A model generated the notes under the pieces. The model saw only the letters and a program-made list of their open reading frames with translations, had not been told where the DNA came from and made no database searches. The position numbers and the translations under genes were made by a program. Positions 8,205 to 36,385 of a stretch of 43,952 nt of DNA are shown in pieces. The DNA comes from a virus, in IMG/VR virus record IMGVR_UViG_3300021960_000154, positions 1 through 43,952 of that record; one strand, written 5' to 3'. Position 1 is the first letter of the stretch, and each line of letters starts with the position of its first letter.

Positions 8205-8233
8205 ATTATATCAGGTCTCCTATAGTTTGTCAA
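8205..8233 (-). promoter_or_regulatory. early promoter P1 (uvsX-gp41 operon), CCTGA family
   Basis: Minus-strand TTGACA at 8228-8233, a 17-base spacer ending in CCTGA, and TATAAT at 8205-8210. Both hexamers are perfect sigma70 matches. The -35 box lies at the 3' end of the upstream methyltransferase gene, whose stop is at 8220-8222 within the spacer. An ATG follows the -10 box with no gap. Confidence 0.85.
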
Positions 8234-15244: not shown

Positions 15245-15664
15245 TTATGCAATATCAATTGTTCTTGGTTTTTTAGCTTCTGGAACTATTTTTTCCAATG
15301 CGATTGATAACATACCATCTTTCATTTCAGCGCCTCTAACTTCTACATCATCAGCGGTTGTGAATGATCTTGTAAAATGTCTTTTGGCAATACCTCTATG
15401 AATTGTATCTTTATCTTCCTCATCTTTGTGAGTTGATTTAATTGTGATAGTATTGTCGGCATATTTCACCTCAATATCATTTTTATTATAACCAGCAAGT
15501 GCCATTTCAATTGTCCAATTGAGATCGTCTTTACCTTTCACGATATTGTATGGTGGGAATGAATTTGATCTATTATCTACATAATGATCAAACTGTGAGA
15601 ACAGATCATCAAATCCAATTGTAAATGGTCTGAGATCGTTCCAAATAGATAAGTTTCTTGTCAT
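15245..15664 (-). CDS. hsp20: small heat shock protein (Hsp20/alpha-crystallin family)
   Basis: A protein of 139 residues with an alpha-crystallin domain from about residue 40. Landmarks are WTIEMALAGYNKNDIEVKY (A-x-x-G-x-x-K/N-x-D-I core), ITIKSTHK, RGIAKRHFTRSFTTADDVEV and the C-terminal strand DGMLSIALEKIVPEAKKPRTIDI with its PRxIxI anchor. It is an ATP-independent holdase, common in marine T4-like phages and probably aiding capsid assembly or host stress. The ATG at 15664 has AAGGAGG upstream and a 58-base leader from a perfect late promoter (15728-15735), suggesting late expression unlike its neighbours. Confidence 0.93.
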   Translation of the reverse strand: MTRNLSIWNDLRPFTIGFDDLFSQFDHYVDNRSNSFPPYNIVKGKDDLNWTIEMALAGYNKNDIEVKYADNTITIKSTHKDEEDKDTIHRGIAKRHFTRSFTTADDVEVRGAEMKDGMLSIALEKIVPEAKKPRTIDIA

Positions 15665-16158: not shown

Positions 16159-16368
16159 TTAGTTGTCATCAAGTCGCTCTTGTAGGCGTCTTAATTTGTT
16201 TACACGCTTGATTGATTCTTTTTTCAAGCGTTGTCTTTTTAACGAAGGCTTTTCATAATATTGCCTTTGTTTTAATTCTTTTAACAAGCCATCTTTCATA
16301 ACTTTCTTTTTTAATTGTCTCATGGCTTTATCTACATTGTTGTTTCTAACTTTAACTTCCAATACCAT
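16159..16368 (-). CDS. rpsU: ribosomal protein bS21
   Basis: A protein of 69 residues, the usual bS21 length. MVLEVKVRNNNVDKAMRQLK aligns with the bS21 N-terminus (V-x-V-x-x-x-x-x-x-x-A-x-R-x-x-K), followed by QRQYYEKPSLKRQRLKKESI and a very basic C-terminus. bS21 sits on the 30S platform near the anti-Shine-Dalgarno and affects initiation. Phage-borne bS21 is known in marine phages and is thought to replace or compete with host bS21. It begins one base after the nuclease-like gene, and GGAG is 10 bases upstream of the ATG. It is expressed from promoter P4. Confidence 0.93.
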   Translation of the reverse strand: MVLEVKVRNNNVDKAMRQLKKKVMKDGLLKELKQRQYYEKPSLKRQRLKKESIKRVNKLRRLQERLDDN

Positions 16369-20615: not shown

Positions 20616-20667
20616 AAAACTCTTATTTTTCAAGGGTTTAAGCAGGGTGCGACAATCCGCACACCCC
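20616..20667 (-). terminator. probable terminator of the DNA-modification operon
   Basis: Directly behind the CmoA-like gene the minus strand has a GC hairpin (GTGCG/CGCAC core at 20647-20651 and 20658-20662, flanked by G-C pairs with one bulge). A weaker imperfect hairpin with a run of six T at about 20616-20621 follows. Together they plausibly separate this operon from P5. Confidence 0.5.
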
Positions 20668-21374
20668 TATTTTATCGCAATAACCCCATAAAAATTGAAG
20701 TTTTGCCAGAAAACATGTAAATCCTTGAAACCTGCGTCTTCACACATTTTAAACATTTCTGTTTTTGTGTTTGGTTTCATCATATGTCGTAATTGGACCT
20801 CTTTGTCTAAAATCTCTGTATCTGTAAAATGTTGTCTTTTATAATCATAATACATAAAAGTCATCATATCTTGAATTTTAGGATTACAACTAAAACTTTT
20901 TTCTGAGAAGATAAACGCACCACCATCATTCAAACCTTGATAAATTTTCCAGATTGTTCCTGCTCGATCTTTAGGTGGCATAAATTGTAATGTAAATAAA
21001 GAAGTCACTAAACTAGCATTTTCTATATCACATTGTCTAATGTCTTCCATTTTATAATAAAGATTATTCCATTCTGATGATACCAGATCCTCTGCGTGAC
21101 CATCAGCAAAATCTGATTCTATCTCTATACCAACATAAGTGGCATATGGCACATGTTCATTATTTTGTTTGATCATTGCCTTAAGCATTTTACCAGAACT
21201 ACAACCTAGATCAACAACATTGGTATGATCTTCAACAAAATACTTAGACATGCTTACGACATCATGCCAGAGATTATTATAACCTCTTACTGATTTTTCT
21301 ATGTGGTTATCAAAACCTTCGCCTGCTGTTGCAAATGTAAATTTCGTCATACTGCCTTTCCCCAATACTGACAT
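20667..21374 (-). CDS. CmoA-like SAM-dependent enzyme (candidate carboxy-SAM synthase)
   Basis: A protein of 235 residues. VVDLGCSSG is SAM motif I. From DIENASLVTSLFTLQF through KIYQGLNDGGAFIFSEK to YYDYKR and FWQNFNF it parallels E. coli CmoA segment by segment, as recalled (ENASMVVLNFTLQF, KIYQGLNPGGALVLSEK, HHDFKR, WFQCFNF). CmoA makes carboxy-SAM from SAM and prephenate. By my gap-free recall alignment, E. coli Arg199, implicated in holding the carboxylate, aligns with Glu (DKEVQLR), so activity needs testing. It is last in the operon C5 transferase, PP-loop, PP-loop, CmoA-like, overlapping the preceding gene by 28 bases. Confidence 0.85.
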   Translation of the reverse strand: MSVLGKGSMTKFTFATAGEGFDNHIEKSVRGYNNLWHDVVSMSKYFVEDHTNVVDLGCSSGKMLKAMIKQNNEHVPYATYVGIEIESDFADGHAEDLVSSEWNNLYYKMEDIRQCDIENASLVTSLFTLQFMPPKDRAGTIWKIYQGLNDGGAFIFSEKSFSCNPKIQDMMTFMYYDYKRQHFTDTEILDKEVQLRHMMKPNTKTEMFKMCEDAGFKDLHVFWQNFNFYGVIAIK

Positions 21375-22147
21375 ATTCCTGCTACGGACTTATATCTGTT
21401 ATTTGGATTTATTCTACTATTATTTAGCAATGTTTCAAATCGCTTGTCTATTCCTGCACCTAATTGTAAATTAATATGTTTCTTGAAATTAAACTTCTTA
21501 AATTCAATAAAGTCATTTACGACATGATGCTTCTGGAATGGTTCATTCAACTCATACCAATTCTTACTGTAAAAGAAATCTCTTACTGCTTTCGATAGAT
21601 ATGGTGTAATAAATTTTTTATTGTGTTTATCTGCAACACCTTTGTGCCATAGATAACCAGCAGACTTATCTGGTAAAAAATAATCATTTCTAAATTCATC
21701 AAACTTTTCTTTTGTCTTGCCTTTTGTGTAATGTAGTATTGCTCTTTTTGATATACCATAATAACCATCAGCTGCCCAACCACTCAATACATCATTTTGT
21801 TTTATCTCTGGATACAAATACATAAATGGAAATACACACTCAAAATGTGTTTTCTTTTTACAGTTATAATCTTTTGCTAATCTAAAAAAGTCTTCTTCTA
21901 AATTATTCGTTGGTACCACTTTCAATGTAAATGGCCACTTAAATATTTGTGCCACCTCAGCAGCCTTATCACTATCATAACTAGAATTTGTATCTAAACA
22001 AAAAGAATAGGCATGAACTTTCTTTCCTAACTCGTGTGCTGCAAAAGCAACACTTAAACTATCTACACCACCAGATAGTAATACAGCAACTTCATCTTCT
22101 TTTGATTGTGCTTCGATAACTCTTTTTAGTATTTGTCTAATCACCAT
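21347..22147 (-). CDS. stand-alone asparagine-synthase-type PP-loop ATPase, second copy
   Basis: A protein of 266 residues. Residues 25-30 (SGGVDS) are the PP-loop that binds ATP pyrophosphate in N-type ATPases. LSGWAADGYYG fits a degenerate form of the GxGADExFGG motif of AsnB, and FITPYLSKAVRDFF its downstream helix. It lacks the N-terminal glutaminase domain of AsnB, so ammonia or an amine must come from elsewhere. The family adenylates a carboxylate and transfers nitrogen to it. It shares one base with the neighbouring PP-loop gene and overlaps the CmoA-like gene. The proposed role is amidating a carboxylate on modified DNA; QueC/TilS-type chemistry is the alternative. Confidence 0.8.
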   Translation of the reverse strand: MVIRQILKRVIEAQSKEDEVAVLLSGGVDSLSVAFAAHELGKKVHAYSFCLDTNSSYDSDKAAEVAQIFKWPFTLKVVPTNNLEEDFFRLAKDYNCKKKTHFECVFPFMYLYPEIKQNDVLSGWAADGYYGISKRAILHYTKGKTKEKFDEFRNDYFLPDKSAGYLWHKGVADKHNKKFITPYLSKAVRDFFYSKNWYELNEPFQKHHVVNDFIEFKKFNFKKHINLQLGAGIDKRFETLLNNSRINPNNRYKSVAGICQYWGKAV

Positions 22148-23040
22148 TAAAACCCTGGAAGTGTTGCTCCACTATTAACTAATTTTTTAACTGCGGCATT
22201 GCGTGAATTTGCACCAGTCATTAACATTAATTTTTCTTCCACAACTTCAAATATTCCTGTGCCGTATTCCATTACTGTTCTTTTTACTTTGTTTGGTTCA
22301 TAACCCATGTATTTTATTACTTCTTTTGGAAAAGTTTTTTTATGTGGTTCTGCATAACTATAATGTAAATCATTAACCCACCTTAATATATCTGGATTTT
22401 TAAAAGCCATAATTGGGTTTGCACCAAGTTCATTAGCAACTTCTAAAAACAAATGTCCTGAACCTTTTTTTGCACCTTTTGATTGTATTGCCTCTGCGTA
22501 ATAATTTTGTTTAAGAATTGTTTTAGCAGTATCTTTATCTACATTATGTTCTTTCATTGCTTGAGGTGTTAATCTATACATAAAGGTTTGTAGAGAACCT
22601 AGCAGTGTATCTGCACCATCGCCTTGAATTAAATCAACACCTTTAACATCAATTTTTTCAAGACACAATTTAAATGTTAAATAATATACTACATTAAATA
22701 GTGTTGTGATACTTTGATGTCCTTTAATTAAATGTAAGTTATCCATTACTTCTTCTAATGTGGTCAAAACAAGTTTATTATTAATACCTAATTTTTCTGC
22801 TGTGTCTTGTGACACTTTAACATCATGAGTATCCTTAACTACACCTACTGTAATTGAATCTTTTAAACCAAAATATTTTTTTGCTATACAACCCAACAAC
22901 ATTGAATCAACTCCACCTGATAACATTAAGACAGGAGGTTTGTTTTTAAATTTTCTATCTCGATTAATAATAAATTTCAAATCATTAATCAACTTTATGG
23001 CACCTTCTTCGTAAGTATCAAATTTAATTATTTCTCTCAT
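22147..23040 (-). CDS. stand-alone asparagine-synthase-type PP-loop ATPase, first copy
   Basis: A protein of 297 residues with the PP-loop at 41-46 (SGGVDS) and G140-D-G-A-D144 (LIQGDGADTLLGS), the GxGADE-type motif of AsnB synthase domains. KRTVMEYGTG near the C-terminus fits the late AsnB region. There is no glutaminase domain. It is distinct from the second copy, and the two may form a heterodimer or act in sequence. It begins 6 bases after the C5 transferase gene ends and shares a base with the next gene, so all belong to one unit. The substrate is not readable from sequence; the neighbours suggest a carboxylate introduced into DNA. Confidence 0.8.
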   Translation of the reverse strand: MREIIKFDTYEEGAIKLINDLKFIINRDRKFKNKPPVLMLSGGVDSMLLGCIAKKYFGLKDSITVGVVKDTHDVKVSQDTAEKLGINNKLVLTTLEEVMDNLHLIKGHQSITTLFNVVYYLTFKLCLEKIDVKGVDLIQGDGADTLLGSLQTFMYRLTPQAMKEHNVDKDTAKTILKQNYYAEAIQSKGAKKGSGHLFLEVANELGANPIMAFKNPDILRWVNDLHYSYAEPHKKTFPKEVIKYMGYEPNKVKRTVMEYGTGIFEVVEEKLMLMTGANSRNAAVKKLVNSGATLPGF

Positions 23041-23046
23041 TTTGTT

Positions 23047-24165
23047 TTATAATCTCCTTAAAACATTCTCATATATGTTGTTAGATAATGCTTTCATCAT
23101 TAGTGGTGCAACCATACGACCAACTCTTTCTGCTTGTTGATCAAAATCCCCTTGTAATTTAAAGTCATCTGGTAAACCCATTACTCTCTTTAATTCTTTA
23201 ATTGTTAATTTACGATTACTGTCATAATGAAACACACCAGACAGACCTTTCTTTTGCCCTGCCTGTGTAAGTGTTGGGCAAGGTAGATCAGGTGCTGGTC
23301 GTATCATATTAAACATAGATTGTTTAGGATTGATATCTATAAATTCAGGATCACTAGGTTTTCTATGTTTGTCTGGACTGAAAGGTAATAACTCAATCCA
23401 CTTCTTTTGAAAACTACCTTGCACAAAATCTAATAACATTTGTACTTCTTCAGGATCGTTTTCTAAATCTTCTATTGCTTCTCTTAATGTTGGTTGTTTT
23501 GATTGTGGTTCTGGATATATGATACTATCCATATTCATAAAGTTAATACCAACTTTCTCCATGATATCATTTCTAACTGCAACGAAGAAACATCTCTTTC
23601 TTGCCTGTGGTGTTCCATAGTCTGCGGCGTTTAACACTTTACCAACTGCTTCATAACCAATACTATCAAATTCATTTACAATACGATTAAAATATTCTTT
23701 TGCCTTACCCATGGTGATACCCGCAACATTCTCACCAATGATAACTTTTGCCTGAACATCTTTTGCAACTCTTGTAAACTCAAAGAATAGGTCTTCAATG
23801 TTATCAACTTGTTTATCGTCTGAATACTTTTTAGTTTTATCCCAACCCTTTTCTCTTTTGCCTGCAACACTAAAAGCACTACAAGGTGGCGAACCATCAA
23901 GTATATCTAACTCGCCTTGTTGTATTCCTGCGGCCTTGAGTAAATCATGACCAGTCAGTTCTTTAATATCGTTAGGTAATATTGGCGTATCAGGATAATT
24001 AGATTTATATGTATCAATTGCACTTTCAACAAATTCATTAACTGCAAGTATATTACCACCTGCAAGTTTATAACCTGTTGAAGACCCACCACCTCCTGCA
24101 AATGTTGATATTACAGTAAATAGTTTGCGATCTGCTGATTTATATACATCTTCTAAAAAATACAT
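23047..24165 (-). CDS. DNA cytosine-C5 transferase, paralogue 2, with Arg in motif X
   Basis: A protein of 372 residues, clearly paralogous to the enzyme at 8.2-9.3 kb. It shows motif I (FAGGGGSSTG), motif IV with catalytic C95 (PPCSAF), E145-N-V, Q187-A-R-K-R191, recognition region ~220-305, RKLT..ELKRVM, and motif X V-G-R350-M-V-A-P with Arg replacing the usual Asn. The recognition regions of the two differ strongly, so the target sequences probably differ. It heads the four-gene modification operon. The ATG at 24165 lies on the predicted +1 of P6, so translation should be leaderless. Confidence 0.92.
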   Translation of the reverse strand: MYFLEDVYKSADRKLFTVISTFAGGGGSSTGYKLAGGNILAVNEFVESAIDTYKSNYPDTPILPNDIKELTGHDLLKAAGIQQGELDILDGSPPCSAFSVAGKREKGWDKTKKYSDDKQVDNIEDLFFEFTRVAKDVQAKVIIGENVAGITMGKAKEYFNRIVNEFDSIGYEAVGKVLNAADYGTPQARKRCFFVAVRNDIMEKVGINFMNMDSIIYPEPQSKQPTLREAIEDLENDPEEVQMLLDFVQGSFQKKWIELLPFSPDKHRKPSDPEFIDINPKQSMFNMIRPAPDLPCPTLTQAGQKKGLSGVFHYDSNRKLTIKELKRVMGLPDDFKLQGDFDQQAERVGRMVAPLMMKALSNNIYENVLRRL

Positions 24166-24171: not shown

Positions 24172-24200
24172 AGTATATCAGGTTATTACAGATTTGTCAA
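24172..24200 (-). promoter_or_regulatory. early promoter P6 (DNA-modification operon), CCTGA family
   Basis: Minus-strand TTGACA at 24195-24200, 17-base spacer ending in CCTGA, TATACT at 24172-24177. Six bases separate the -10 box from the ATG. The -35 box lies within the last codons of the MazG-like gene. Confidence 0.85.
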
Positions 24201-24473
24201 GGACGAAAAAGTCTTTAGTTTTTCACGCTTTTTCTTCACCCTTGTCTCAATATCTTCATATTTTACTAACCCCTTTTCTTCAAGTAATTGCAACATACAC
24301 ATAACATCACCTGCTTCTTTTGTAAGATTTTGTAAGGCATCTGTGTCAAATTGAGGTTGAGTACCAAATCTTACGATTTTCATACATTCTTGGGTTAGTT
24401 CACCACATTCTTCAGCCATAATGGCAAGAAGTTCTGTTCGTTCTTGTACTGTCATTTTGGGTCTAAGTTTCAT
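24186..24473 (-). CDS. mazG: MazG-like nucleotide pyrophosphohydrolase
   Basis: A protein of 95 residues, a single all-alpha NTP-pyrophosphatase module. E21-E22-x-x-E25 (AEECGEL) and E53-x-x-D56 (KEAGDVM) are the metal-binding pattern ExxE...ExxD of this superfamily. It should hydrolyse (d)NTPs or alarmone-like nucleotides to monophosphate and PPi. MazG-type proteins are frequent cargo in marine T4-like phages, where alarmone or nucleotide-pool control is proposed. It overlaps gene 46 by 4 bases, making it the last gene of the gp55-gp47-gp46 unit. Confidence 0.85.
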   Translation of the reverse strand: MKLRPKMTVQERTELLAIMAEECGELTQECMKIVRFGTQPQFDTDALQNLTKEAGDVMCMLQLLEEKGLVKYEDIETRVKKKREKLKTFSSLTNL

Positions 24474-26176
24474 TCTACTACCTTTGTAAAGTTTCCTACC
24501 TTTTCATATTTTATTATATTCTTAAATCTATCTGCTATCATATCTGTTTTGTGTGATATAATAAAGACATTCTCATTTTCTAATGTATTCAATATTTTTA
24601 AAAAATCATCTGTGCCTTGACCATCAAGACTACTATCAAATATCTCATCTAACATTAACAGATTACATGATATACTATTTTTCATCTTTGCAATAGCACG
24701 CCATGTAAACAATAATGCTAAATTAATTCTCATCTTTTCACCTTCACTAAAACTTGCATATGTAAATTCATCACGATATCTACTTCTTATTGTTTCTTTA
24801 AACTCATTATCTAATTTAAAATTAACAAAGAAATCCATACTTGCCAAATATTTGTTAATTAATTGATTGATAATTGGTAAGTATTGTTTGATAACTTTTG
24901 TCTTAATACCAGAATCCATTAACATTGTTTTGGCTGCTTGTAAATAATCAAGTTCCTCTGTTTTAATTAATTTGTTTTTTTCTTTTACAGAATGTTCTTC
25001 TTCTAATTGTTTTAGTTTACCTAATGCTTCACCATCTTCACTAGATTGTTTTTTTAGTTCTTCAATCTTATGTGCTAATTTTGTGTTAATATTGTTTAAC
25101 TCAACTTTTGATTGACCAAATTTAGCAATGTCAATTTCTGTTGTTCGTATATCTTGTTCAACGCTTTTAATTTTATTTAATCTGTTAGAAATTACTTGTA
25201 TTTCTTTTTGAACATCTTCCATTGCTTGATTCCATTTCATTAACTCTTTATTGTTTTCTGAAATCAATTTGTCTTTATTTGATAAAACTTGTTGACAGGT
25301 AGGACAGTTATTGTTGTCATCATAAAACTTTTTATGTTTATTACATTCTTTAAGTTTAGTATGAAACTGTGCTTGAAAATTATTAAGTTTGTCTATTTTA
25401 TTGTTTGCGCCATCTTTATCATTTATTGATTCTTTAAGTTTTTGTATTTCGTGTTGTAATCCTTGTATGTGTGTATTATATTTGTCTATGGCACTTTTAT
25501 TATGATCTATTTTTTGTATTTCACTTTGTACTTCTATATCTGATCTATTACTTAAATTATTGATATATTCTTTTTGTGTATCTATTTTATTTTGAACAAT
25601 ATCCAACTCTCTTAATATGTCTTTGACTTGTTCGTCCATTTCTTTTATTCTTATCTTTGTCAGCATACTCATTACAGAGAATACTTTAATGTCAAGTATA
25701 TCTTCAATAATCTCTCGTCTGTGTGCTGTCTTTAATTCCATAAACGGAACAAAGGTAGATGCACCAAGTATAACTACTTGTGTAAAACTACGATAATTAA
25801 ATTTAAGTATTTGTTGTTCTAACTGTTTTTGATAATCAGCAATTGTAGCATCTTGATTAAGTAATTCATCATTTAAATAAATCTCGAATATATTAGGTTT
25901 GATGCCTCGTCTAATTTTATAACGATTAGATGATATACGAAACTCTAACTCAACCTCTGTGCCACCAAGATTGATACTGTTGATTAATTGATCTTTCTTT
26001 ATTTCTCTAAAAGGTTTATTAAACAAAGCAAAACACAAAGCGTCTAGTATAGTAGATTTACCTGCCCCATTGTGACCAACAATTAATGTTGTAGAATTAT
26101 CATTCAAATTTGTTTCAATAAAACTATTACCAGAAGACAAGAAGTTTTTCCATCTTATTTTTTCAAATATTATCAT
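24470..26176 (-). CDS. gp46: recombination endonuclease subunit gp46 (Rad50/SbcC family)
   Basis: A protein of 568 residues (T4: 560). It has the N-terminal ATPase half with Walker A at 34-41 (GHNGAGKS), a long coiled coil broken by the zinc-hook CPTC (NNCPTCQQ), the signature SFSEGEKMRINLAL, and Walker B LLMLDEIFDSSLD. With gp47 it forms the Mre11-Rad50-type complex that processes DNA ends for recombination-dependent replication. The start overlaps gene 47 by 4 bases. Confidence 0.96.
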   Translation of the reverse strand: MIIFEKIRWKNFLSSGNSFIETNLNDNSTTLIVGHNGAGKSTILDALCFALFNKPFREIKKDQLINSINLGGTEVELEFRISSNRYKIRRGIKPNIFEIYLNDELLNQDATIADYQKQLEQQILKFNYRSFTQVVILGASTFVPFMELKTAHRREIIEDILDIKVFSVMSMLTKIRIKEMDEQVKDILRELDIVQNKIDTQKEYINNLSNRSDIEVQSEIQKIDHNKSAIDKYNTHIQGLQHEIQKLKESINDKDGANNKIDKLNNFQAQFHTKLKECNKHKKFYDDNNNCPTCQQVLSNKDKLISENNKELMKWNQAMEDVQKEIQVISNRLNKIKSVEQDIRTTEIDIAKFGQSKVELNNINTKLAHKIEELKKQSSEDGEALGKLKQLEEEHSVKEKNKLIKTEELDYLQAAKTMLMDSGIKTKVIKQYLPIINQLINKYLASMDFFVNFKLDNEFKETIRSRYRDEFTYASFSEGEKMRINLALLFTWRAIAKMKNSISCNLLMLDEIFDSSLDGQGTDDFLKILNTLENENVFIISHKTDMIADRFKNIIKYEKVGNFTKVVE

Positions 26177-27222
26177 ATCTCTAAATCTCCTGCTTCTGTG
26201 TATAATGATTTCATTAATTTTTTCAATCTACTTTTTTCTAAATCTGTTTCAAGTTCATCAATATAATTATCTAATAGTGTAGGTGTATCTTCACTTTTTT
26301 CTGCAATATCATCTGCCACAGTAGAAGCATCTAAATCTGAATAATCTTCAATAATTTTTATATCATGTACATTGGTATGTTTATAGAAACCATCAAGCCA
26401 CTTATCAAACAAATAATAATCTTTTTTCTTTTCTACAATTACTTTGAGATATTTGTCTCTGTGTTCATCATAATTGTAAAGAAGTTTATATTCGTTTTCT
26501 TCATCATTATAATATATCTTCTCGTGTATAGTAAAAGGATTCTTAATATATTCTAATTCTCTTGTTTCTGTATCTAATATGTGAAAACCTTTTTGACAAT
26601 TATAATCATTCCAAATAAATTCATATTGACTACCTAGATAAAAGATATGACCATCATCAGATTTTTTATGAAAGTGACCAGATAATACTTTTTCAAATCT
26701 ACGAAATAGTTTTTTATCTAATCCACTATCTGCAAATGCACCATTAAACATTTCAAAACCTTTGACTTCTAAATGACCTAAAACAATATCAGCACTTTCT
26801 TGTTCTAACATCATTGTCGTTTGTTCTAAGTTTTCTGGCGTGACCCAAGGAATATACAACATTCTCATGCCACCTTTTTCTATGACCGTAGGTTCTGCAT
26901 AAACATTTCCCCAAGACATTAATTCTTGTGGAGCATTTATTTCATTTGTATTTTTATAATAGGTGTCGTGATTACCAATGATAATATCTACATTTAAATT
27001 TTTTATACGATTAACAAACTTATTGTTAAAATCGTTTAATGTTTTAAAGTTTACAAATTTACGCCTATCTAATACATCACCTAGATGTATGACATTTTCA
27101 ATATTATGTTTCTCTAAGTATGGAAAAAATATCTCTTCCCAAAACTTATAGAAATACTTAGCGTAATTTGGGTTATCATTACGAGCACCAAAGTGTGTGT
27201 CGTTAATTAAAGCAATTTTCAT
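26173..27222 (-). CDS. gp47: recombination endonuclease subunit gp47 (Mre11/SbcD family)
   Basis: A protein of 349 residues (T4: 339) with the metallophosphoesterase motifs in order: NDTHFGA (D-x-H), HLGDVLDRR (GDxxD), IGNHDTYY (GNHD), GHLEV and SGHFHKK (GHxH). These coordinate two metal ions for nuclease activity. It partners with gp46, encoded immediately downstream with overlap. It begins 3 bases after the gp55 stop. Confidence 0.96.
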   Translation of the reverse strand: MKIALINDTHFGARNDNPNYAKYFYKFWEEIFFPYLEKHNIENVIHLGDVLDRRKFVNFKTLNDFNNKFVNRIKNLNVDIIIGNHDTYYKNTNEINAPQELMSWGNVYAEPTVIEKGGMRMLYIPWVTPENLEQTTMMLEQESADIVLGHLEVKGFEMFNGAFADSGLDKKLFRRFEKVLSGHFHKKSDDGHIFYLGSQYEFIWNDYNCQKGFHILDTETRELEYIKNPFTIHEKIYYNDEENEYKLLYNYDEHRDKYLKVIVEKKKDYYLFDKWLDGFYKHTNVHDIKIIEDYSDLDASTVADDIAEKSEDTPTLLDNYIDELETDLEKSRLKKLMKSLYTEAGDLEI

Positions 27223-27225
27223 AAT

Positions 27226-27774
27226 TTACATAAAAAATTCTAATTTAGTAATCTTCTTTCTTTTAAGTTTAGGTTTATCTTTCTTTACTGGTTCTTCTTC
27301 TATAATCATATTCTTTCTTAAAAAGTCAGCATATGAATTTTGATATTCTTCGTTATCACCTTCTTGTCTAACTATTTCATCAAGACCTGATTTAAGTATA
27401 AGTTTTTGTTTAATTGTTGTTTGTTTCTTTTCTTTTTGTATTCTTCTTATAAATGCATAATATATAATTTGTGTAAAATATGCAAAAGGATTACTTGATT
27501 TCTCTGGATCAAAATTTGCTACATAAGTTAAACAATTTTCTATACCATCAGATATCATATCTTCTTTGTATGTGTAGTTTATAAAATTTGGTCTGTAAGA
27601 TAAGTGATTTGCAATCTTTAAAAAACATTCACCTATGTAATCGCTAATGGGTGGATCTTTTCTATTTCTATTTCTTGCGGATAATACTTTCTTACGATAC
27701 TTTTTCATTTCTTCTAGAAATTTTTTATTATCTACATAATGCTCTGTCTTTTTTCTTTTCAATTGTACAGTCAT
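27226..27774 (-). CDS. gp55: late-transcription sigma factor (T4 gp55)
   Basis: A protein of 182 residues (T4: 185). ISDYIGECFLKIANHLSYRPNF and MISDGIENCLTYVANFDPE followed by NPFAYFTQIIYYAFIRRIQKEKK form the compact sigma-region-2-like core of gp55. The C-terminus ITKLEFFM is a short hydrophobic tail as in T4 gp55, which binds the gp45 clamp through its C-terminus. It should direct RNA polymerase to the NATAAATA promoters listed here. A TAGGAG site 7 bases from the ATG and a ~17-base leader make it one of the few early genes with normal initiation. Confidence 0.93.
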   Translation of the reverse strand: MTVQLKRKKTEHYVDNKKFLEEMKKYRKKVLSARNRNRKDPPISDYIGECFLKIANHLSYRPNFINYTYKEDMISDGIENCLTYVANFDPEKSSNPFAYFTQIIYYAFIRRIQKEKKQTTIKQKLILKSGLDEIVRQEGDNEEYQNSYADFLRKNMIIEEEPVKKDKPKLKRKKITKLEFFM

Positions 27775-27797
27775 AGTATTACTCCTAAATTTAAATT

Positions 27798-27826
27798 ATT
27801 CTATCAGGATATAGTATATTTGTCAA
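27798..27826 (-). promoter_or_regulatory. early promoter P7 (gp55-gp47-gp46-mazG), CCTGA family
   Basis: Minus-strand TTGACA at 27821-27826, 17-base spacer ending in CCTGA, TAGAAT at 27798-27803, then a leader with TAGGAG. Upstream it faces phased A-tracts shared with a divergent plus-strand promoter. Confidence 0.85.
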
Positions 27827-27854
27827 GGGTTATATACAAGATTTTGTAAAATAA

Positions 27855-27881
27855 TTTTTTTTGATTTTTTTGAATTTTTTT
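27855..27881. other. phased T/A-tracts between divergent promoters
   Basis: Three runs of T (27855-27862, 27865-27871, 27875-27881 on the plus strand) repeat with a 10-base period, the arrangement that bends DNA. They end just before the plus-strand -35 box, where an UP element would lie, and about 30 bases upstream of the minus-strand P7 -35 box. Confidence 0.65.
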
Positions 27882-27882
27882 C

Positions 27883-27911
27883 TTGACAAATGACATTTTG
27901 CCTTGTATAAT
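27883..27911 (+). promoter_or_regulatory. consensus sigma70 promoter on the plus strand
   Basis: TTGACA at 27883-27888, 17-base spacer, TATAAT at 27906-27911, perfect in both boxes and spacing, with T-tracts directly upstream. The predicted start is near 27918, inside CCGG-N5-CCGG (27912-27924), a possible operator or small hairpin. It is the only convincing plus-strand promoter seen; it points into the 3' end of the 151-residue minus-strand gene, so it would make an antisense or untranslated RNA. It lacks the CCTGA motif. Confidence 0.7.
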
Positions 27912-27942
27912 CCGGTATGTCCGGTTTGCAAGAGATATAGTA

Positions 27943-28398
27943 TTAGTGAGACTTAATCTTACCTTTGAGATACTGTATCGTTTGATAGTATTCTTCATCT
28001 GACATTTCATCTAATACTTGTTCAAATGGTTTATCTGATTGACCTTTTGAAGGTAGAGGTTGTAATTCTTTTTTCATTGATGGATATAATCCCATTCTAA
28101 CATTATTATAATATTCTGTCAAGTTATCATTTGGTTTTCCTATTGTCATTATATGAGTTTTATGTAATGAATACACTTTGTCTATTGTTTGAAAAGTCCA
28201 AGGTGTAAGTGACATTCTTTCTTCAACAAAATATGTTTTATCATCAACAGCATTTTCATGTATTCTAATTTTATAAGGTTCATGTAATCTAACAAAATCA
28301 GAGCCTTCTTCGACTGTCATACCAGCAATTACTTGCTGATTGTTTGATAACATGATTACTCTTGGACTAGGTATTGTTGTTGTTTTTGTTTCTGTCAT
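27943..28398 (-). CDS. unrecognised protein, possible Sm-like domain, under a late promoter
   Basis: A protein of 151 residues. RVIMLSNNQQVIAGMTVEEGSDFVRLHEPYKI has the strand-turn-strand rhythm of an LSm/Sm-like barrel, and SLTPWTFQTIDKVYSLHKTHIMTI could supply its later strands, followed by a charged helical tail. That fold call is tentative. The ATG at 28398 falls on the predicted start of a GATAAATA late promoter and lacks a Shine-Dalgarno, so late leaderless translation is expected. If the fold is right it might bind RNA. An antisense promoter fires toward its 3' end. Confidence 0.65.
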   Translation of the reverse strand: MTETKTTTIPSPRVIMLSNNQQVIAGMTVEEGSDFVRLHEPYKIRIHENAVDDKTYFVEERMSLTPWTFQTIDKVYSLHKTHIMTIGKPNDNLTEYYNNVRMGLYPSMKKELQPLPSKGQSDKPFEQVLDEMSDEEYYQTIQYLKGKIKSH

Positions 28399-28403
28399 AT
28401 AAG

Positions 28404-28411
28404 TATTTATC
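28404..28411 (-). promoter_or_regulatory. T4-type late promoter before the 151-residue gene
   Basis: Minus-strand GATAAATA followed by CTTAT and then ATG. It overlaps the uvsW stop region. The predicted +1 is the A of ATG at 28398. Confidence 0.6.
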
Positions 28412-29876
28412 TTATGTCAACATGATCAAGTTCATAGTCAAGTTCTTGTTCAGAGTACACATTTATTCTTTCCATAAAGTGATTAAGGGTAAAGTTTCTT
28501 TGCTCTTTCCATGAGAAATCATCAGCAACATCATACAAAGTTGCTTTAACTTTATTGTCACCAAGACGCAACCCACGACCAAGAGACTGTAAAATTCGTA
28601 CTTTAGATTTGGTAGGACTTGCAAATATAACATTGTGAAGATTCCTAATATTAATACCAGTAGAAAAGGTTCCGTAACTCGCAACGATAATGGCATTGTT
28701 TTCATTTTCTGTAATACTCCTGACTGTTTCACGATCTTTGGTTTCTGTGCCACCATAGACGAAAAACAGTTTTCGTGTTTGATGATCTAAGGTATCACCT
28801 ATGAGACTGTGTAATACTCGACCATGTTTTTCTACATATTGAAATAAAACTAAAGTATTACCAGTTCTTGTTTTTGTTAGATTGCGAATGAATCTATTGC
28901 GTTTCTCATGTGACACTATATAGTCCATTTCTTCTTGGTAGTTTAGTTTCTTCACATGTTTACATTCATCTTGTGAATATTTCAGTATGAGACATTGTAT
29001 TTGTAAGTCCGCTAGTTGTTTCTTATCTATCAGTTCTCGTGTAGAAATTACACTATGCACGGTACCAAACAAACCCTCTAAAACTAACTTATGCACTTTA
29101 CTATCATCTAATGTACCAGTAGTGCCTATACGATATTTCGCATTAACACAAGCACTCATAATTTTTTGTAATTCTTTAGATTTGTATAGATGTGCTTCGT
29201 CACCTATGACACAATCAAACTTTTCAAAATACTTTTTATCAAAGGTGGCAAGTGATTGCCATGTCGATATCACAACAGGTTTACTATCATCTATTTCATA
29301 ACCATAGTATTTTCGTTGTACAAACTTTTCTGCTTCCCAACCATAATCTTCAAAATCTTTATACATTTGTTCTACCAAAGATGTGGTGGGTACGATTAAC
29401 AAACATTGTTTCTCTAATGAGGTAAGTAATCGTATGATACAATAAATGATTAATGACTTACCTGATGCAGTAGGTGATAGTAATATTGCTCGTTTATGAT
29501 TGATCGCATGAGAAAACGCTGAGAGTTGATAATCTCGTATTTTGATTGAATCCTTAATAATTTTGTCTGCGAACTTAGAAAAAGTGTTGCTCAGCACGCC
29601 GCTAAGCGTGTTTTCAAGACCCTCTCGTATGATTGTACCCCCCGTATTTTGCATAAAATGTTCAACATAAGGCAACAGTCCGTAATATAACTTACCAGTT
29701 GCTTTTGAGAATAATCGTATCTGACCATCCCATCGTTTGGCACGAACACTTGGCATAAATGAAGCACCAGGTACTTTGAAAGTAAAAAATTCAGATAGTT
29801 CTTGCAGTAAACCTAAATCTTCACTTGTACACTTGATATAAGATTCATTATACTTTGTTATTTTTAATTCTCTCAT
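28407..29876 (-). CDS. uvsW: RNA-DNA/DNA helicase UvsW
   Basis: A protein of 489 residues (T4: 502-503). An N-terminal domain (1-110) precedes two RecA-like lobes. Motifs visible: I at 134-141 (SPTASGKS), II CVIGDEAHLYK, III GTTGTLDD, IV TLVLFQYVEKHGR, and VI ILQSLGRGLRLG. In T4 it dissolves R-loops at origins and branch-migrates recombination intermediates, switching replication from origin-driven to recombination-driven. The start overlaps the upstream gene by 29 bases. Confidence 0.95.
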   Translation of the reverse strand: MRELKITKYNESYIKCTSEDLGLLQELSEFFTFKVPGASFMPSVRAKRWDGQIRLFSKATGKLYYGLLPYVEHFMQNTGGTIIREGLENTLSGVLSNTFSKFADKIIKDSIKIRDYQLSAFSHAINHKRAILLSPTASGKSLIIYCIIRLLTSLEKQCLLIVPTTSLVEQMYKDFEDYGWEAEKFVQRKYYGYEIDDSKPVVISTWQSLATFDKKYFEKFDCVIGDEAHLYKSKELQKIMSACVNAKYRIGTTGTLDDSKVHKLVLEGLFGTVHSVISTRELIDKKQLADLQIQCLILKYSQDECKHVKKLNYQEEMDYIVSHEKRNRFIRNLTKTRTGNTLVLFQYVEKHGRVLHSLIGDTLDHQTRKLFFVYGGTETKDRETVRSITENENNAIIVASYGTFSTGINIRNLHNVIFASPTKSKVRILQSLGRGLRLGDNKVKATLYDVADDFSWKEQRNFTLNHFMERINVYSEQELDYELDHVDIR

Positions 29877-30675
29877 TTAATTCTTCGTATGAAATGTTTG
29901 ACCAATATTTTCTTTCTAATTTTTCTATCTCTGGTATAGGTTCACCCACATGTATAAACTCGTGATCCGTGTCATATTTGTTTATTAGTTTAATTGTGTG
30001 TTTTATCCAGTTTTGAGGATCAATCGCTTGTGCTTGAGACCCTACATATCCTGTTGTGCCTTTGTAGATGTTGTTCACTTGTTTTGACTTCGAATGATAA
30101 TCGTATCCTATCAGATATATCTTGTTGTCCACATCTGCTGCCATTAACGCAATCAAGACACCTGCGTTTGTCTTCTCTTGTTGGTACTTGCCCAATCCCA
30201 TTACTTTGTCTTTTTTCTTTGTCCATGTTATTTTATATCCTTCTTGATCTTCACCAAAATGTAACTTAAAATCATCTTCATGCCAATCTTTGTGTTTTTC
30301 ACGAAACTGCCTCATTACATCTACATTATTTGCCCAACATGTAAAGAATCTTTTCTTTTCTCCTGGCCATTCATGTTCATCTGTATAATCTTCTATATTA
30401 TCTACATCACCTATAAACTTTTTTATTATCTCTGGTTCAAACAATTTGTCGTACATAGTGTGTGGATTTTTTTCCCATGCTCGTAAATAAACAGTATGAT
30501 CAAATGCATAACCACTACGATATATCTCATGACAGATATTGTAATCCATACCTACTAATACATCTGGTGCAAAATCTCTATACAATCCATTACAACCATA
30601 TATCTTACCAAATGATCTAAGTTGTTCTAAATCAAAGTCTTTTCGACTTTCTCCATTACCTATACAGAATATCAT
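29848..30675 (-). CDS. MptE/GT42-like Rossmann-type protein of unknown function
   Basis: A protein of 275 residues. The N-terminus IFCIGNGESRKDFDL followed by GKIYGCNGLYRDFAPDVLVGMD resembles the GNGPS...GxN...PDxxxxxD pattern of DUF115 (MptE-like) and GT42 sialyltransferase-like proteins. DNKIYLIGYDYHSKS later in the chain matches the family's second strand. Those families transfer pyrophosphate or sugars. Here it lies between UvsW and a 2OG oxygenase, so glycan or nucleotide modification is conceivable. The assignment rests on a short motif; the substrate is unknown. Confidence 0.7.
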   Translation of the reverse strand: MIFCIGNGESRKDFDLEQLRSFGKIYGCNGLYRDFAPDVLVGMDYNICHEIYRSGYAFDHTVYLRAWEKNPHTMYDKLFEPEIIKKFIGDVDNIEDYTDEHEWPGEKKRFFTCWANNVDVMRQFREKHKDWHEDDFKLHFGEDQEGYKITWTKKKDKVMGLGKYQQEKTNAGVLIALMAADVDNKIYLIGYDYHSKSKQVNNIYKGTTGYVGSQAQAIDPQNWIKHTIKLINKYDTDHEFIHVGEPIPEIEKLERKYWSNISYEELNERIKNNKV

Positions 30676-31169
30676 TTTTTTACCTCAAAATTTAAATTAA
30701 TATTTACTCTCATATTTTGATCTGTTTGTGTAACTGATCTATGTGGTGTTCCGCCATCAAAAACTATTGCTTGATTTTCGATAGAATTAAACTTTGTGCC
30801 ATTTTCAAATTCTGTGTAACCATTATTTGTATTAATACTTAATAAACAAACTTTATGTTTTTTGTGTTGATCTATATGATATTCATGTTTAACATGTTTG
30901 TGTTGATTAGTGTACCAATTTGCTTTTGCTCGAATTAAAATATCTTTAGTAATTTTTAGTTTTTTAATTATAGGATCTATTATTCCTTCAAATATCTCTG
31001 GTGTTGTATTCACTTCATAACTGTGATGAAATAAATGAAAAAACATAAACTGTCTATCTGAACGAAGCGCAACAGCATCATTATAATACCAAGGCATTCT
31101 AGGACTTAACATAAAATCTTGTATTTCTTTAAAAGTCTTTTTAGGTAAAAAGTTTTTGTATATTTTCAT
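30672..31169 (-). CDS. 2-oxoglutarate/Fe(II)-dependent oxygenase (prolyl-4-hydroxylase-like)
   Basis: A protein of 165 residues with a double-stranded beta-helix core. H98-I-D100 (EYHIDQH) and H143 (PHRSV) are the iron ligands, and R154 (NMRVNINL) should bind 2-oxoglutarate. AIVFDGGTPHRSV is characteristic of this family. Such oxygenases are among the most abundant accessory genes of marine T4-like phages, with substrates still largely undetermined. The ends overlap or abut UvsY and the MptE-like gene. Confidence 0.88.
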   Translation of the reverse strand: MKIYKNFLPKKTFKEIQDFMLSPRMPWYYNDAVALRSDRQFMFFHLFHHSYEVNTTPEIFEGIIDPIIKKLKITKDILIRAKANWYTNQHKHVKHEYHIDQHKKHKVCLLSINTNNGYTEFENGTKFNSIENQAIVFDGGTPHRSVTQTDQNMRVNINLNFEVKK

Positions 31170-31597
31170 TACATACTACCCATAGTAAACTTTTTCCATT
31201 CTATTGCATTTTTAATTTGAAATGTACGATTGTTTATTTGTTTTAATGTGTTTTCACAATAATTACATATTTGTTTGAGATACTCAATCTTTTGTCTTGA
31301 CTTCATAATATCTTCATCAGCATCAATAAACTTATCTACATCTTGTCGTAATACCTTTAAATCAAAGTTTGTATCTTTGTATTCTTGTGGTTCTGCTTTA
31401 CCAGTATAGAACAACCACTTTTTTAAATGTAGTTGTGAATGATCGCCCTCTGCTTTTTTTAACATAAGAGCATATGTAGAATATGTTTTGAGATATTGAG
31501 AATGTAGTTGTGGGGTCTTTAGACTTTCTAGGTCTAGTTCAGTATCATCAATTTTCAGGTCTTTCTCGACCTGAGCTTGTAGCTCATCAAGTGTCAT
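31169..31597 (-). CDS. uvsY: recombination mediator UvsY
   Basis: A protein of 142 residues (T4: 137), wholly helical. TLDELQAQVEKDLKIDDTEL, LHLKKWLFYTGKAEP and VLRQDVDKFIDADEDI correspond in order to T4 UvsY segments as recalled (ending with a CEN..LKQINNRTFQIKNAI helix). UvsY loads UvsX on gp32-coated single strands. The ATG at 31597 has AAGGAT upstream. Its place directly behind the gp23 region is typical for marine T4-like phages. Confidence 0.88.
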   Translation of the reverse strand: MTLDELQAQVEKDLKIDDTELDLESLKTPQLHSQYLKTYSTYALMLKKAEGDHSQLHLKKWLFYTGKAEPQEYKDTNFDLKVLRQDVDKFIDADEDIMKSRQKIEYLKQICNYCENTLKQINNRTFQIKNAIEWKKFTMGSM

Positions 31598-31625
31598 AAT
31601 TTAATCCTTTGTATTATATAGTAAA

Positions 31626-32225
31626 CTAAAAAGGGGTCGTATATTTGTGTAGTTTATAACCAAATGTTACTGTTGCAGTAAGATATTCTACATCAGTTGC
31701 ACTTTGATTATAATTTAAACCAGATAATGATTTAGGATATGTATCTTCAAAAGTTAACTCAACAATTGGAATATTTCTTGCTGACAATATAATCATTTTT
31801 GCATCTGAAAATATTGCACCATCATTAGTTGCTGTTGTTACTCTACCAGCATCTTGAAGATTTGTTTGTTGAGATAATGGCATACGATCACCGCCATCTG
31901 TAATTAGTTCACGATATTTGTCATCACTATCCATTTGTGCAAGACCAGCCATCCAGTCATGTACACTTCGATAATTTGTCAAATCTTCGTCAACAATAAA
32001 AGTTACAGATAAGTCTTCAAATGTCATATCATTACCAGGTATTCTTACAGGCATTAATCGTGTAGGTTGATTTAATTCTGTAAGTGTAATACCAGGAATA
32101 TTTGCCTGAATAGAGTTAAATTCTACTCTAGGCAGTTTGGTAATTTGAAACTTAAACTTTGTAGGATCTGCATAGTCTAATCCAGACCCACTTGGTTGTT
32201 TACTTGATAATGTTGTATCTGTCAT
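31626..32225 (-). CDS. tail-tube-like protein, probably tail completion (gp3-like)
   Basis: A frame of 205 residues opens at 32243, but that ATG lies at the edge of the late promoter. The ATG at 32225 (MTDTTLSSKQ, 199 residues) fits the predicted start. FKFQITKLPRVEFNSIQANIPG, the TFEDLSVTFIVDEDL strand and the final EYLTATVTFGYKLHKY resemble gp19/gp54-type tail tube folds. In marine T4-like phages the gene between gp23 and UvsY is usually called gp3 (tail completion and sheath stabilisation). The fold class is fairly clear; the exact T4 equivalent is not. Confidence 0.7.
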   Translation of the reverse strand: MTDTTLSSKQPSGSGLDYADPTKFKFQITKLPRVEFNSIQANIPGITLTELNQPTRLMPVRIPGNDMTFEDLSVTFIVDEDLTNYRSVHDWMAGLAQMDSDDKYRELITDGGDRMPLSQQTNLQDAGRVTTATNDGAIFSDAKMIILSARNIPIVELTFEDTYPKSLSGLNYNQSATDVEYLTATVTFGYKLHKYTTPF

Positions 32226-32232
32226 ATAATAG

Positions 32233-32240
32233 TATTTATG
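32233..32240 (-). promoter_or_regulatory. T4-type late promoter of the tail-tube-like gene
   Basis: Minus-strand CATAAATACTATT, matching the extended T4 late sequence TATAAATACTATT at all but the first base. Predicted +1 near 32227, two bases before the ATG at 32225. Confidence 0.7.
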
Positions 32241-32243
32241 CAT

Positions 32244-32278
32244 AAAAAAAGGGGGAGTTTTGACGCCCCCCCCTTTTT
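32244..32278 (-). terminator. strong bidirectional terminator behind gene 23
   Basis: On the minus strand AAAAA then eight G, a 10-base loop, five C and seven T. The stem is GGGGG/CCCCC extended by A-T pairs. It lies 19 bases after the gene 23 stop and immediately before the next late promoter. The symmetrical A/T flanks let it work in both directions. Confidence 0.9.
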
Positions 32279-32296
32279 AATTAAGTTGAAAAAGTA

Positions 32297-33565
32297 TTAC
32301 ATTAAGTTAGTTACTTTAACCATTCTGTAATAGATGTTTGACTGATCAGTTCCAACATCAGTAGCCTGTGCTGAAGACTCAGCGAAAGGATTTCTGATTA
32401 AACCATATCTGGTTTTGAAACCAATTTTTGGTTGGAATGTATCTTCTCCAACTGCTCTCACCATTTGTAGTGGAACATATGGACAATAGAACATACCAGC
32501 GTCATAAGGTGATGTACCTTTATAACCTACAACATAGTATTGAGCAGCAGTATTGTTTGATGCATATGGATCAATATATACTTTGTATCTGCCGTTTAAT
32601 GTACCAGCAAAAGTATTACCAGTATCATCTACATTTAGGCTATTGTTAAGAGCAGGAGTGTAATCTAATACACCAGCCATTTGTAATGCAGAAGCAACAT
32701 CAGAAGAACAGATAATGATGTTACCTTTTCCTCTACGAGTTTCTTGAGCGATTACATTAGCATCTCTCTCTACTTGGAACATTAAACCTTTGAACTTCTC
32801 AACAGACCATCTACCGTTTGAATCAGTATCTAAGTCAAATGTACCTGAAGTTGTAGTGTTAATGTTTGCACCTTTTTTTGCTTTTTCGTAAATTGTTCTT
32901 ACTACTTCTCTGTTGATCTCAGCAAGGATCTCAGCAGATAAGATGTTAGCCAATTCAGTTTCAGCGTCTAAACCGTGGATCGCTTTTAAGTCTTGAGCAA
33001 GTTCCATTGTGTACTCAGCTTTTAACTGTCTAGTTTTAGCTGTTACAGTTGACTTCTCAATACTGAAAGCCATCTCAGCGAATGATGAAGAAGCTTCAGC
33101 AGTTGCTGTTGCAATACCAGTACCAGCTGTTACGCTAGTTGTAGTATCGTTCATTAAACCTGGGTTTAGGGCAGCAGAACTATGAGTACCAGTTCCAGAG
33201 AAATCTGAATCTGCTTCGTTGAATAGCGCTTCTGTGCCTGAGTTTGAAGTAAATCTGGACTTCATTGCAAAGATCAGACCAGTTGGTCCAGTCATTGGTT
33301 GAACGCCACAGATGTCGTATGCGATAAGATTAGGCATTGCTCTTCTTACCAATGAGATTAGGATTGGATCCCAGTTTGCTACAGCACTGTCACCAGTAAT
33401 GTTTGCAATCTCACCGAGGAATGCTTTGTCTTCTTTCGCAGCTTTTTCTTGGTTTTCAAGGATAACAGCAGTTACCGCTTTCTTGTAAGGGTTTTCTATT
33501 TTTGGTAGATCGCCATGCTCAAGAACCGGAGCCCACTTTTCCTGTAAGTTTTGCGAATTAAACAT
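32297..33565 (-). CDS. gp23: major capsid protein (T4 gp23)
   Basis: A protein of 422 residues with the T4 gp23 landmarks ALVRRAMPNLIAYDICGVQPMTGPTG-type N-terminal arm (here SLVRRAMPNLIAYDI) and GTSPYDAGMFYCPYVPLQ near the C-terminus. L50-G-E52 before IANITGDS fits the (I/L)xE cleavage site of the gp21 protease, so the first ~52 residues are probably removed. The codon pattern appears more GC-rich and regular than that of neighbours, as expected of a highly expressed gene. AAGGAGAG precedes the ATG. Followed by a strong terminator. Confidence 0.97.
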   Translation of the reverse strand: MFNSQNLQEKWAPVLEHGDLPKIENPYKKAVTAVILENQEKAAKEDKAFLGEIANITGDSAVANWDPILISLVRRAMPNLIAYDICGVQPMTGPTGLIFAMKSRFTSNSGTEALFNEADSDFSGTGTHSSAALNPGLMNDTTTSVTAGTGIATATAEASSSFAEMAFSIEKSTVTAKTRQLKAEYTMELAQDLKAIHGLDAETELANILSAEILAEINREVVRTIYEKAKKGANINTTTSGTFDLDTDSNGRWSVEKFKGLMFQVERDANVIAQETRRGKGNIIICSSDVASALQMAGVLDYTPALNNSLNVDDTGNTFAGTLNGRYKVYIDPYASNNTAAQYYVVGYKGTSPYDAGMFYCPYVPLQMVRAVGEDTFQPKIGFKTRYGLIRNPFAESSAQATDVGTDQSNIYYRMVKVTNLM

Positions 33566-33586
33566 TGTGTTTATCTCTCCTTAGTT

Positions 33587-34846: not shown

Positions 34847-34890
34847 TTGTAATTACTCTCCTAATTTGATATCAAATTTTTGCGTATAAC

Positions 34891-34898
34891 TATTTATT
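34891..34898 (-). promoter_or_regulatory. late promoter of gene 22-23
   Basis: Minus-strand AATAAATA overlapping the gene 21 stop. It gives a ~39-base leader with AGGAG before gene 22. Confidence 0.55.
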
Positions 34899-35550
34899 AT
34901 TTTGTTAATTTTCGCATAAAGCTTTCAAAGGCATGTGCCTCTGCTTTTGCTTGACGCTCTCTCGTTTCACGCTCAATTTGTTCTTTTATTTCAGAAACAT
35001 CTTGTTCTTTGATGATTCCGTTGTCCCAAATCCACTCTTTTCCTTCCATGACACCGTTGACGAATGCCTGTGGAGCAGAAGGATCTGCGACTATATCGGC
35101 TGCAGTCGCTAAATAAAAATCAGATTTTACATAGTTGGTACCGCCTTTATTCTCTAGAGAACCCATGCCTCTAGAAGAAACTCCTAGTTGTGCGCCTTCA
35201 TCTATTAATGATTTGACGATTTTTCCATATGGAGTATCAGTAATCTTTGCTTCACCGATGTAATTACCTTTACTATCGCCTTCTAATTTAGTAATAATAT
35301 GTGATACTCTTTCTAGATTAACAGTTGGTCCATCAGGATGTCCTAATTCACCAAATGCTCTTTTACGCTCAACAAATTCTTTGTTGTATCTTTTAACTTC
35401 TTTTTCTAATACTTCCATAGGGTAAACACGACCATTACGGTTTTTGATGTTTGCCTGCATGAAAATACCTTTGATTTTATGAGACTTTTTACCATTATCT
35501 TCTTCAACGATATATTGTGCCTCGTTTATTTCTTCTCTAATCAGTTTCAT
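34897..35550 (-). CDS. gp21: prohead maturation protease (T4 gp21)
   Basis: A protein of 217 residues (T4: 212). H71 in AFGELGHPDGP and S125/S126 in LGVSSRGMGS are the catalytic His and Ser region of the herpesvirus-assemblin-like phage protease family. Further conserved parts are NRNGRVYPMEVLEKEV and VADPSAPQAFVNG. It cleaves gp22, gp23 and other head proteins after (I/L)xE. The C-terminal Arg/Glu-rich helix probably is removed. AAAGGGG lies upstream of the ATG. Confidence 0.95.
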   Translation of the reverse strand: MKLIREEINEAQYIVEEDNGKKSHKIKGIFMQANIKNRNGRVYPMEVLEKEVKRYNKEFVERKRAFGELGHPDGPTVNLERVSHIITKLEGDSKGNYIGEAKITDTPYGKIVKSLIDEGAQLGVSSRGMGSLENKGGTNYVKSDFYLATAADIVADPSAPQAFVNGVMEGKEWIWDNGIIKEQDVSEIKEQIERETRERQAKAEAHAFESFMRKLTK

Positions 35551-35574
35551 GTTGCGTATTTTCCCCTTTAGTTC

Positions 35575-35582
35575 TATTTATG
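35575..35582 (-). promoter_or_regulatory. late promoter of gene 21
   Basis: Minus-strand CATAAATA at the end of the upstream small structural gene. The predicted leader is about 19 bases and includes AAAGGGG. Confidence 0.55.
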
Positions 35583-36373: not shown

Positions 36374-36385
36374 TTTTACTCTCCT

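Follow-up and report, generated by a model that had tools for sequence, protein, structure and literature searches.

Predicted DNA carboxymethylation operon

The 43,952-nucleotide stretch of DNA analyzed here at its full length (the window; IMG/VR virus record IMGVR_UViG_3300021960_000154) carries on its minus strand an operon of four genes, CmoX1, Lig2, CmoY and CmoA, and elsewhere a fifth gene, CmoX2. These genes are tentatively interpreted as a CmoA-CmoX-CmoY type of system for hypermodifying phage DNA, in which an additional ligase, Lig2, would act with or after CmoY. Homology predicts with high confidence that the CmoA, CmoX and CmoY steps of this system proceed as they do in Synechococcus phage S-B43, whose system was published in December 2025 (Nat Commun, PMC12783734), in the one paper on the core system among the matches listed in the literature search. 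According to that report, the S-B43 enzyme SpCmoA makes carboxy-S-adenosylmethionine (carboxy-SAM, Cx-SAM) with a turnover number (kcat) of 2.33 per s, compared with 0.23 for Escherichia coli CmoA; SpCmoX, whose motif X residue Arg350 touches the carboxymethyl group and for which carboxy-SAM is the sole donor accepted by the wild type, makes 5-carboxymethylcytosine in GC; and SpCmoY attaches glycine to 5-carboxymethylcytosine, the glycyl product being detected in phage DNA (PMC12783734). The published nucleoside masses are m/z 286.1 for 5cxmdC and 343.1 for the glycyl product (PMC12783734). The first-pass annotation of the window had proposed that carboxy-SAM is made, that cytosine is carboxymethylated at C5, and that the acid is converted to an amide by an AsnB-type ligase, a sequence of reactions that is supported by the biochemistry reported for the S-B43 homologues, which are 48–54% identical to the window's proteins (PMC12783734). 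Its statement that no natural system of this kind was known is out of date, because the S-B43 system has now been described (PMC12783734).

Along the minus strand from 24165 to 20667 the genes follow in the order CmoX1, Lig2, CmoY, CmoA. CmoX1 (23047–24165, minus strand, 372 residues) is a predicted DNA cytosine C5 carboxymethyltransferase matching DNA_methylase with an expectation value (E) of 6.8e-54; Lig2 (22147–23040, minus strand, 297 residues) is a putative stand-alone AsnB-type PP-loop ligase; CmoY (21347–22147, minus strand, 266 residues) is an orthologue of SpCmoY and predicted ATP-dependent amide ligase; and CmoA (20667–21374, minus strand, 235 residues; phrog_4752, E 1.8e-60) is a predicted phage-type carboxy-SAM synthase. 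The Pfam family Asn_synthase matches CmoY and Lig2 with E values of 6.2e-12 and 2e-10, respectively. All four open reading frames thus lie on the minus strand where the first-pass annotation had placed an operon, and its family assignments are confirmed by profile matches far beyond chance. The tight spacing that it described was also found: the CmoX1 stop and the Lig2 start are separated by a 6-base gap, Lig2 and CmoY overlap in TAATG, and CmoY and CmoA overlap in ATGA if the second Met of CmoA, near 21350, is its start, as is likely.

Conservation of the two predicted carboxymethyltransferases

CmoX1 aligns with SpCmoX over its full length at 51.6% identity, and its best match in the PDB is 8yf3 (E 1.7e-114). 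The Arg in motif X noted in the first-pass annotation is Arg350, which aligns with Arg350 of SpCmoX. A second predicted carboxymethyltransferase, CmoX2 (8220–9344, minus strand; DNA_methylase, E 1.4e-58), lies beyond the region which that annotation had delimited; it shares 62% identity with SpCmoX and 56% with CmoX1, and its motif X residue is Arg352. The residues of SpCmoX that contact Cx-SAM (F25, E47, F48, and D69) are all retained in both CmoX1 and CmoX2, as are the SPPC motif, the nucleophile C98, and the R350 equivalent. In its target-recognition region CmoX2 resembles SpCmoX, whereas CmoX1 falls in another group, a comparison that assigns no motif.

Conservation of the motif X Arg was assessed in 84 rows, comprising the best 80 of the 96 CmoX relatives from the first viral scan with 3 cultured-phage rows added and one duplicate row for the window's twin contig. 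Arg is present in 79 of the 80 rows readable at that position, and the sole exception is a Leu in Methylophilales phage Melnitz-3. That phage (L003; 4010–5227 and 82–1131) has a RimK-like ATP-grasp gene near its CmoX homologue, and a search for a CmoA match found none in 13.2 kilobases (kb); the homologue may use another cofactor. In seven other contigs (L078–L080 and L082–L085) the gene after a CmoX homologue (42–44% identity) that retains the motif X Arg encodes a protein of methyltransferase fold only weakly resembling CmoA (17–34 bits).

Paired CmoX genes occur beyond the window. A search of 12 contigs with CmoX2 as the query gave two genes in four (G026, G031, G011, and G012), one gene in seven, and in G033 one gene together with an edge fragment of another. 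Judged from coordinates, six of the seven single-gene contigs stop short of the place where the second gene is expected, and G034 is long enough yet seemingly has a single CmoX. The twin contig of the window has two CmoX genes, and the pair is also found in L007 and L016 (CmoX2 identities of 98% and 96%) and, as more distant versions, in L047 and L048, where CmoA adjoins the CmoX2-type gene. The absence of CmoA beside many CmoX genes was considered as counter-evidence and rejected, since 2 of 15 contigs searched whole carry CmoA farther off, beside the second CmoX; CmoA was not found in the other 13, all of which are fragments.

CmoA and the substitution at Arg199

The window's CmoA is 53.5% identical to SpCmoA and matches the bacterial CmoA structures (1im8, 4iwn, 4gek), those of E. 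coli and Haemophilus with E values of 2.3e-28 and 3.6e-30. The first-pass annotation correctly noted that this protein lacks an equivalent of E. coli Arg199, and regarded the absence as the main weakness of its proposal. The residue at this position is Glu in the window's CmoA and likewise in SpCmoA, and Glu is found in all 25 readable phage CmoA rows (26 rows, one truncated); four residues farther along, where E. coli has Glu203, the same 25 rows have Arg. The charge pair is thus swapped between positions 199 and 203 in phage CmoA, in distinction from the bacterial enzyme. Loss of Arg199 is no argument against CmoA activity because SpCmoA, which is active, has Glu there, and the supposed weakness is removed. 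The window's protein, which scores below the bacterial equivalog cut-offs, is classed as a phage-type CmoA.

CmoY and its relatives

CmoY of the window and SpCmoY share 48.2% identity across 94% of the length of the latter, and the PP-loop of the window's protein (SGGVDS) is intact. A PDB sequence search gave no match at E 0.1; an AlphaFold2 model with a mean predicted local distance difference test (pLDDT) score of 89.1 matches the AsnB and beta-lactam synthetase class. In a profile alignment GWAADG of CmoY is placed opposite GEGSDE of AsnB, and the position of AsnB Glu348 is occupied by Trp in 11 of 14 CmoY rows, by Val in 3, and by Ile in SpCmoY. The CmoY-type ligases of L017 and L090 (2 of 14 rows) have Gly in place of the first Ser of the PP-loop SGG.DS.

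Genomic linkage was examined for the best 80 of 519 CmoY loci found. Neither CmoX nor CmoA is present in the stretch examined at 58 of these 80. In L165, a 157.6-kb record with no Lig2, some 15.6 kb separates CmoY from CmoX and CmoA, which are together. Among ten CmoY records searched whole, two have CmoX and CmoA and eight have neither, all being fragments or of unknown completeness. Beside a CmoX that is 92% identical to that of the window, contig L011 (6479–7315) carries a CmoY-type ligase of 49% identity, an exchange of the ligase in place.

Lig2, a second PP-loop ligase family

Lig2 constitutes its own phage family, with the motifs SGGVDS and GDGADT. Among 50,697 phage records none matches over 80% of Lig2, and four Listeria records align with half of the protein at 26.7%. 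IMG/VR scans recovered 2 loci when the single sequence was used and 12, 21, and 22 when alignments were used, mostly the same loci. No relatives were found in cellular genomes in two genome scans, each of which used two short peptide patterns that distant relatives could escape. Full-length homology between Lig2 and SpCmoY was not found, and SpCmoY is not among the phage-record matches of Lig2. BLASTP joins Lig2 and CmoY of the window over 17 residues, and profile comparison gives a probability of 92%, consistent with two PP-loop proteins that are probably related, but only distantly.

The PDB sequence search with Lig2 gave weak matches to AsnB and NAD synthetase. An AlphaFold2 model built on a 17-row alignment (pLDDT 85.3), which was also searched with Foldseek, is structurally similar along almost its whole length to human ASNS (Z score 21.1), beta-lactam synthetase (20.9), and E. 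coli AsnB (19.0). No N-terminal glutaminase domain was found in the 297 residues of Lig2, and only the synthetase part of the models is matched. LarE is next after the AsnB class, at Z 11.8, and the idea that Lig2 is a sulfurtransferase, raised by a DsrC-like neighbor in some contigs, was rejected as the leading interpretation on the basis of this difference in Z score together with the Pfam match to Asn_synthase. In a profile alignment GDGADT of Lig2 is placed opposite GEGSDE of AsnB. The position of AsnB Glu348, a residue that helps in the use of ammonia, is Asp in 17 of 17 Lig2 rows, and the PP-loop is intact in all 14 rows that hold that part of the protein. Lig2 is under constraint: nonsynonymous and synonymous divergence (dN and dS) between the window and L098 are 0.179 and 0.794, and dN is below dS in three other pairs, with one further pair identical.

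At several genomic sites the gene immediately upstream of CmoY is Lig2: those of the window; of L087, L088, L089, and L107, which is truncated; of L098–L100; and of L102. The two genes share ATGA in L087, L098, and L102. The pair is preceded by a clamp-loader gene in L089 and by a DNA polymerase gene in L099, and in L102 it is flanked by a thioredoxin-domain gene and an exonuclease gene, a site at which L138 has CmoY alone. Each of the nine contigs that show both Lig2 and CmoX also has CmoY.

Contig L007 carries the same operon without Lig2, its CmoX1, CmoY, and CmoA having 95–97% DNA identity to those of the window. A single 912-base gap relative to the window removes Lig2 and the last 13 bases of CmoX1, and the two CmoY proteins differ at four aligned residues, none of them in the PP-loop or GWAADG. 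The nearest relative of the window's Lig2 is that of L098 (72.9%), whereas the window's CmoY is 98.5% identical to that of L007 and 59.5% to that of L098. Lig2 was therefore gained or lost alone, with CmoY unchanged, since a near-identical CmoY exists in L007 without Lig2 and the nearest relatives of the two proteins are discordant.

Proposed pathway and alternatives

In the proposed pathway CmoA would convert SAM and prephenate to carboxy-SAM, and CmoX1 and CmoX2, with their different target-recognition regions, would transfer the carboxymethyl group to cytosine C5, the motif X Arg holding the carboxylate. CmoY would turn the new carboxylate into an acyl adenylate and then join glycine to it. 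Lig2, with or after CmoY, would activate the carboxylate of the DNA-bound glycine and close it as a second amide with ammonia or another amine. The glycine carboxylate is the most likely site of this step, as judged from the anatomy of Lig2 and the gene order, and Lig2 most likely acts after CmoY because it keeps the company of CmoY at several sites, was added next to a CmoY that did not change, and is seen with CmoX only where CmoY is also present. Calculated m/z values are 285.1 for an amide formed directly on 5-carboxymethylcytosine, 342.1 for the glycinamide, and about 400.1 for a diglycyl product. The first-pass annotation had both PP-loop proteins taking part in amidation; for CmoY this stands by homology, and for Lig2 it depends on the considerations just given. 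The more specific proposal, that Lig2 elongates the modification by placing a second amine on glycylated cytosine, leaving a two-amide chain as a peptide-like arm at two target sequences, is plausible but somewhat doubtful. The purpose of the system is probably protection from host restriction; resistance to HhaI has been reported for SpCmoX-treated DNA (PMC12783734).

Several observations weigh against the pathway as drawn. The target motif of CmoX1 probably cannot be carried over from SpCmoX, their target-recognition regions being different, and the window's CmoA does not reach the cut-offs of the bacterial CmoA equivalog models (127 bits as compared with 193.3 for TIGR00740, and 103.6 as compared with 285 for PRK15451). 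CmoY loci are mostly without Lig2, and in L090/L101 a distance of 3.7 kb lies between Lig2 and CmoY-CmoX-CmoA. Moreover, neither CmoY nor CmoX is in view at 11 loci that have Lig2 (L005, L091, L093, L094, L096, L103–L106, L108, and L109, a count that leaves out the fragment L115); the gene directly before Lig2 is DsrC-like in one group (L104, 81–1322) and a sulfite-reductase-domain fragment in another contig (L091, 3–1347), so that some lone Lig2 proteins may have another role. The lone loci and their sulfur-related neighbors favor an explanation in which Lig2 is unrelated to DNA and instead ligates small molecules, as in sulfur or cofactor metabolism, while happening to travel with the operon. 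This explanation is considered improbable, given that Lig2 stands directly upstream of CmoY with coupled starts in several contexts and that the 11 contigs measure 4–17 kb, whereas CmoY itself is often far from CmoX. Absence of CmoY and CmoX near Lig2 says little because most CmoY loci are likewise bare, and yet L165 has CmoX and CmoA at a distance.

The main rival retains the core as proposed and has Lig2 act directly on 5-carboxymethylcytosine as an alternative ligase with a different amine such as ammonia, so that two kinds of amide would be made. Lig2 shares its AsnB-type fold with CmoY, has Asp at the AsnB Glu348 position as compared with Trp or Val in CmoY, and would have a precedent in the ligase clusters predicted to use other amines (PMC12783734). 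It is nevertheless found with CmoY and never in its stead in the nine contigs that also have CmoX, and two ligases would compete for one substrate, which makes direct action rather unlikely. It is very improbable that Lig2, whose gene is adjacent and coupled to that of CmoY, is a partner subunit aiding CmoY or a maker of its amine with no catalytic step of its own, because its PP-loop is invariably intact and the nearly unchanged CmoY of the Lig2-free L007 suggests that CmoY requires no partner and no new amine. Although generic family models label both CmoX proteins cytosine methylases, the notion that they are ordinary methyltransferases producing 5-methylcytosine is scarcely credible in view of the motif X Arg, the fully conserved Cx-SAM site, the presence of CmoA and CmoY in the same operon, and the exclusive use of carboxy-SAM by wild-type SpCmoX (PMC12783734).

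Genomic setting and carrier phage

Upstream of the operon are a MazG-like gene and SbcC-like and SbcD-like genes, the latter two in the position of T4 gp46/gp47, and downstream are a CobT-like 'peptidase' gene and a CobS-like gene. A small HNH endonuclease gene (9341–9733) adjoins CmoX2 with an overlap of a few bases. The terminases of the window and of Pelagibacter phage HTVC008M share 88.4% identity, and an alignment with this phage covers 54% of positions 24186–43952 at 78.1% nucleotide identity. By this similarity the window is assigned to a T4-like marine myovirus resembling HTVC008M, and its host is likely of the Pelagibacter type. Genes for ribosomal protein S21 and Hsp20 (16159–16368 and 15245–15664) are present in the window and also in HTVC008M. 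In HTVC008M both CmoX slots are filled by DruA-domain proteins (L113; 7117–8259 and 20536–21660); a pair of one family seems to have been exchanged for a pair of another at these two sites.

Relation to known systems and significance

In the window and in S-B43 alike, orthologues of CmoA, CmoX, and CmoY are clustered, CmoX has Arg in motif X, and CmoA has Glu at the Arg199 position. The two differ in gene content, a further CmoX and a further ligase being found in the window, whereas S-B43 shows CmoX, CmoY, and CmoA at a single place apiece and lacks Lig2; in gene order, which is CmoA-CmoY-CmoX in S-B43 and CmoX-Lig2-CmoY-CmoA in the window; and in the target-recognition region of CmoX1. Lig2 and CmoY share the PP-loop, a GEGSDE-like motif, and the synthetase-domain fold with E. 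coli AsnB, beta-lactam synthetase, and carbapenam synthetase, but they are stand-alone proteins that consist of the synthetase part without a glutaminase domain. The CmoA-CmoB system of bacterial tRNA modification (cmo5U) has in common with the window the CmoA fold and homology over the full length of CmoA, whereas the operon in the window pairs CmoA with a DNA C5 transferase. An engineered carboxymethyltransferase, M.MpeI N374K/R (cited in PMC12783734), reportedly has a basic residue in place of the motif X Asn, as the CmoX proteins do; the system of the window is natural and has its own CmoA and ligases.

The core chemistry is thus already known, and the window contributes to it a Pelagibacter-type carrier, a pair of carboxymethyltransferases, and the extra ligase family Lig2. 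In the main text of the S-B43 report, terms for second or paired ligases, paralogs, or two copies are absent, and the 2,251 ligases left unnamed in that work may include some Lig2 members (PMC12783734). A recent DNA chemistry is extended to Pelagibacter-type (SAR11) myoviruses, the ligase slot is seen to be exchangeable and able to be doubled, and Lig2 becomes a named ligase family with a testable reaction. If the proposed reaction is correct, the building of amides on DNA in two successive steps would broaden the known range of phage hypermodification and could provide tools for placing chemical groups on DNA.

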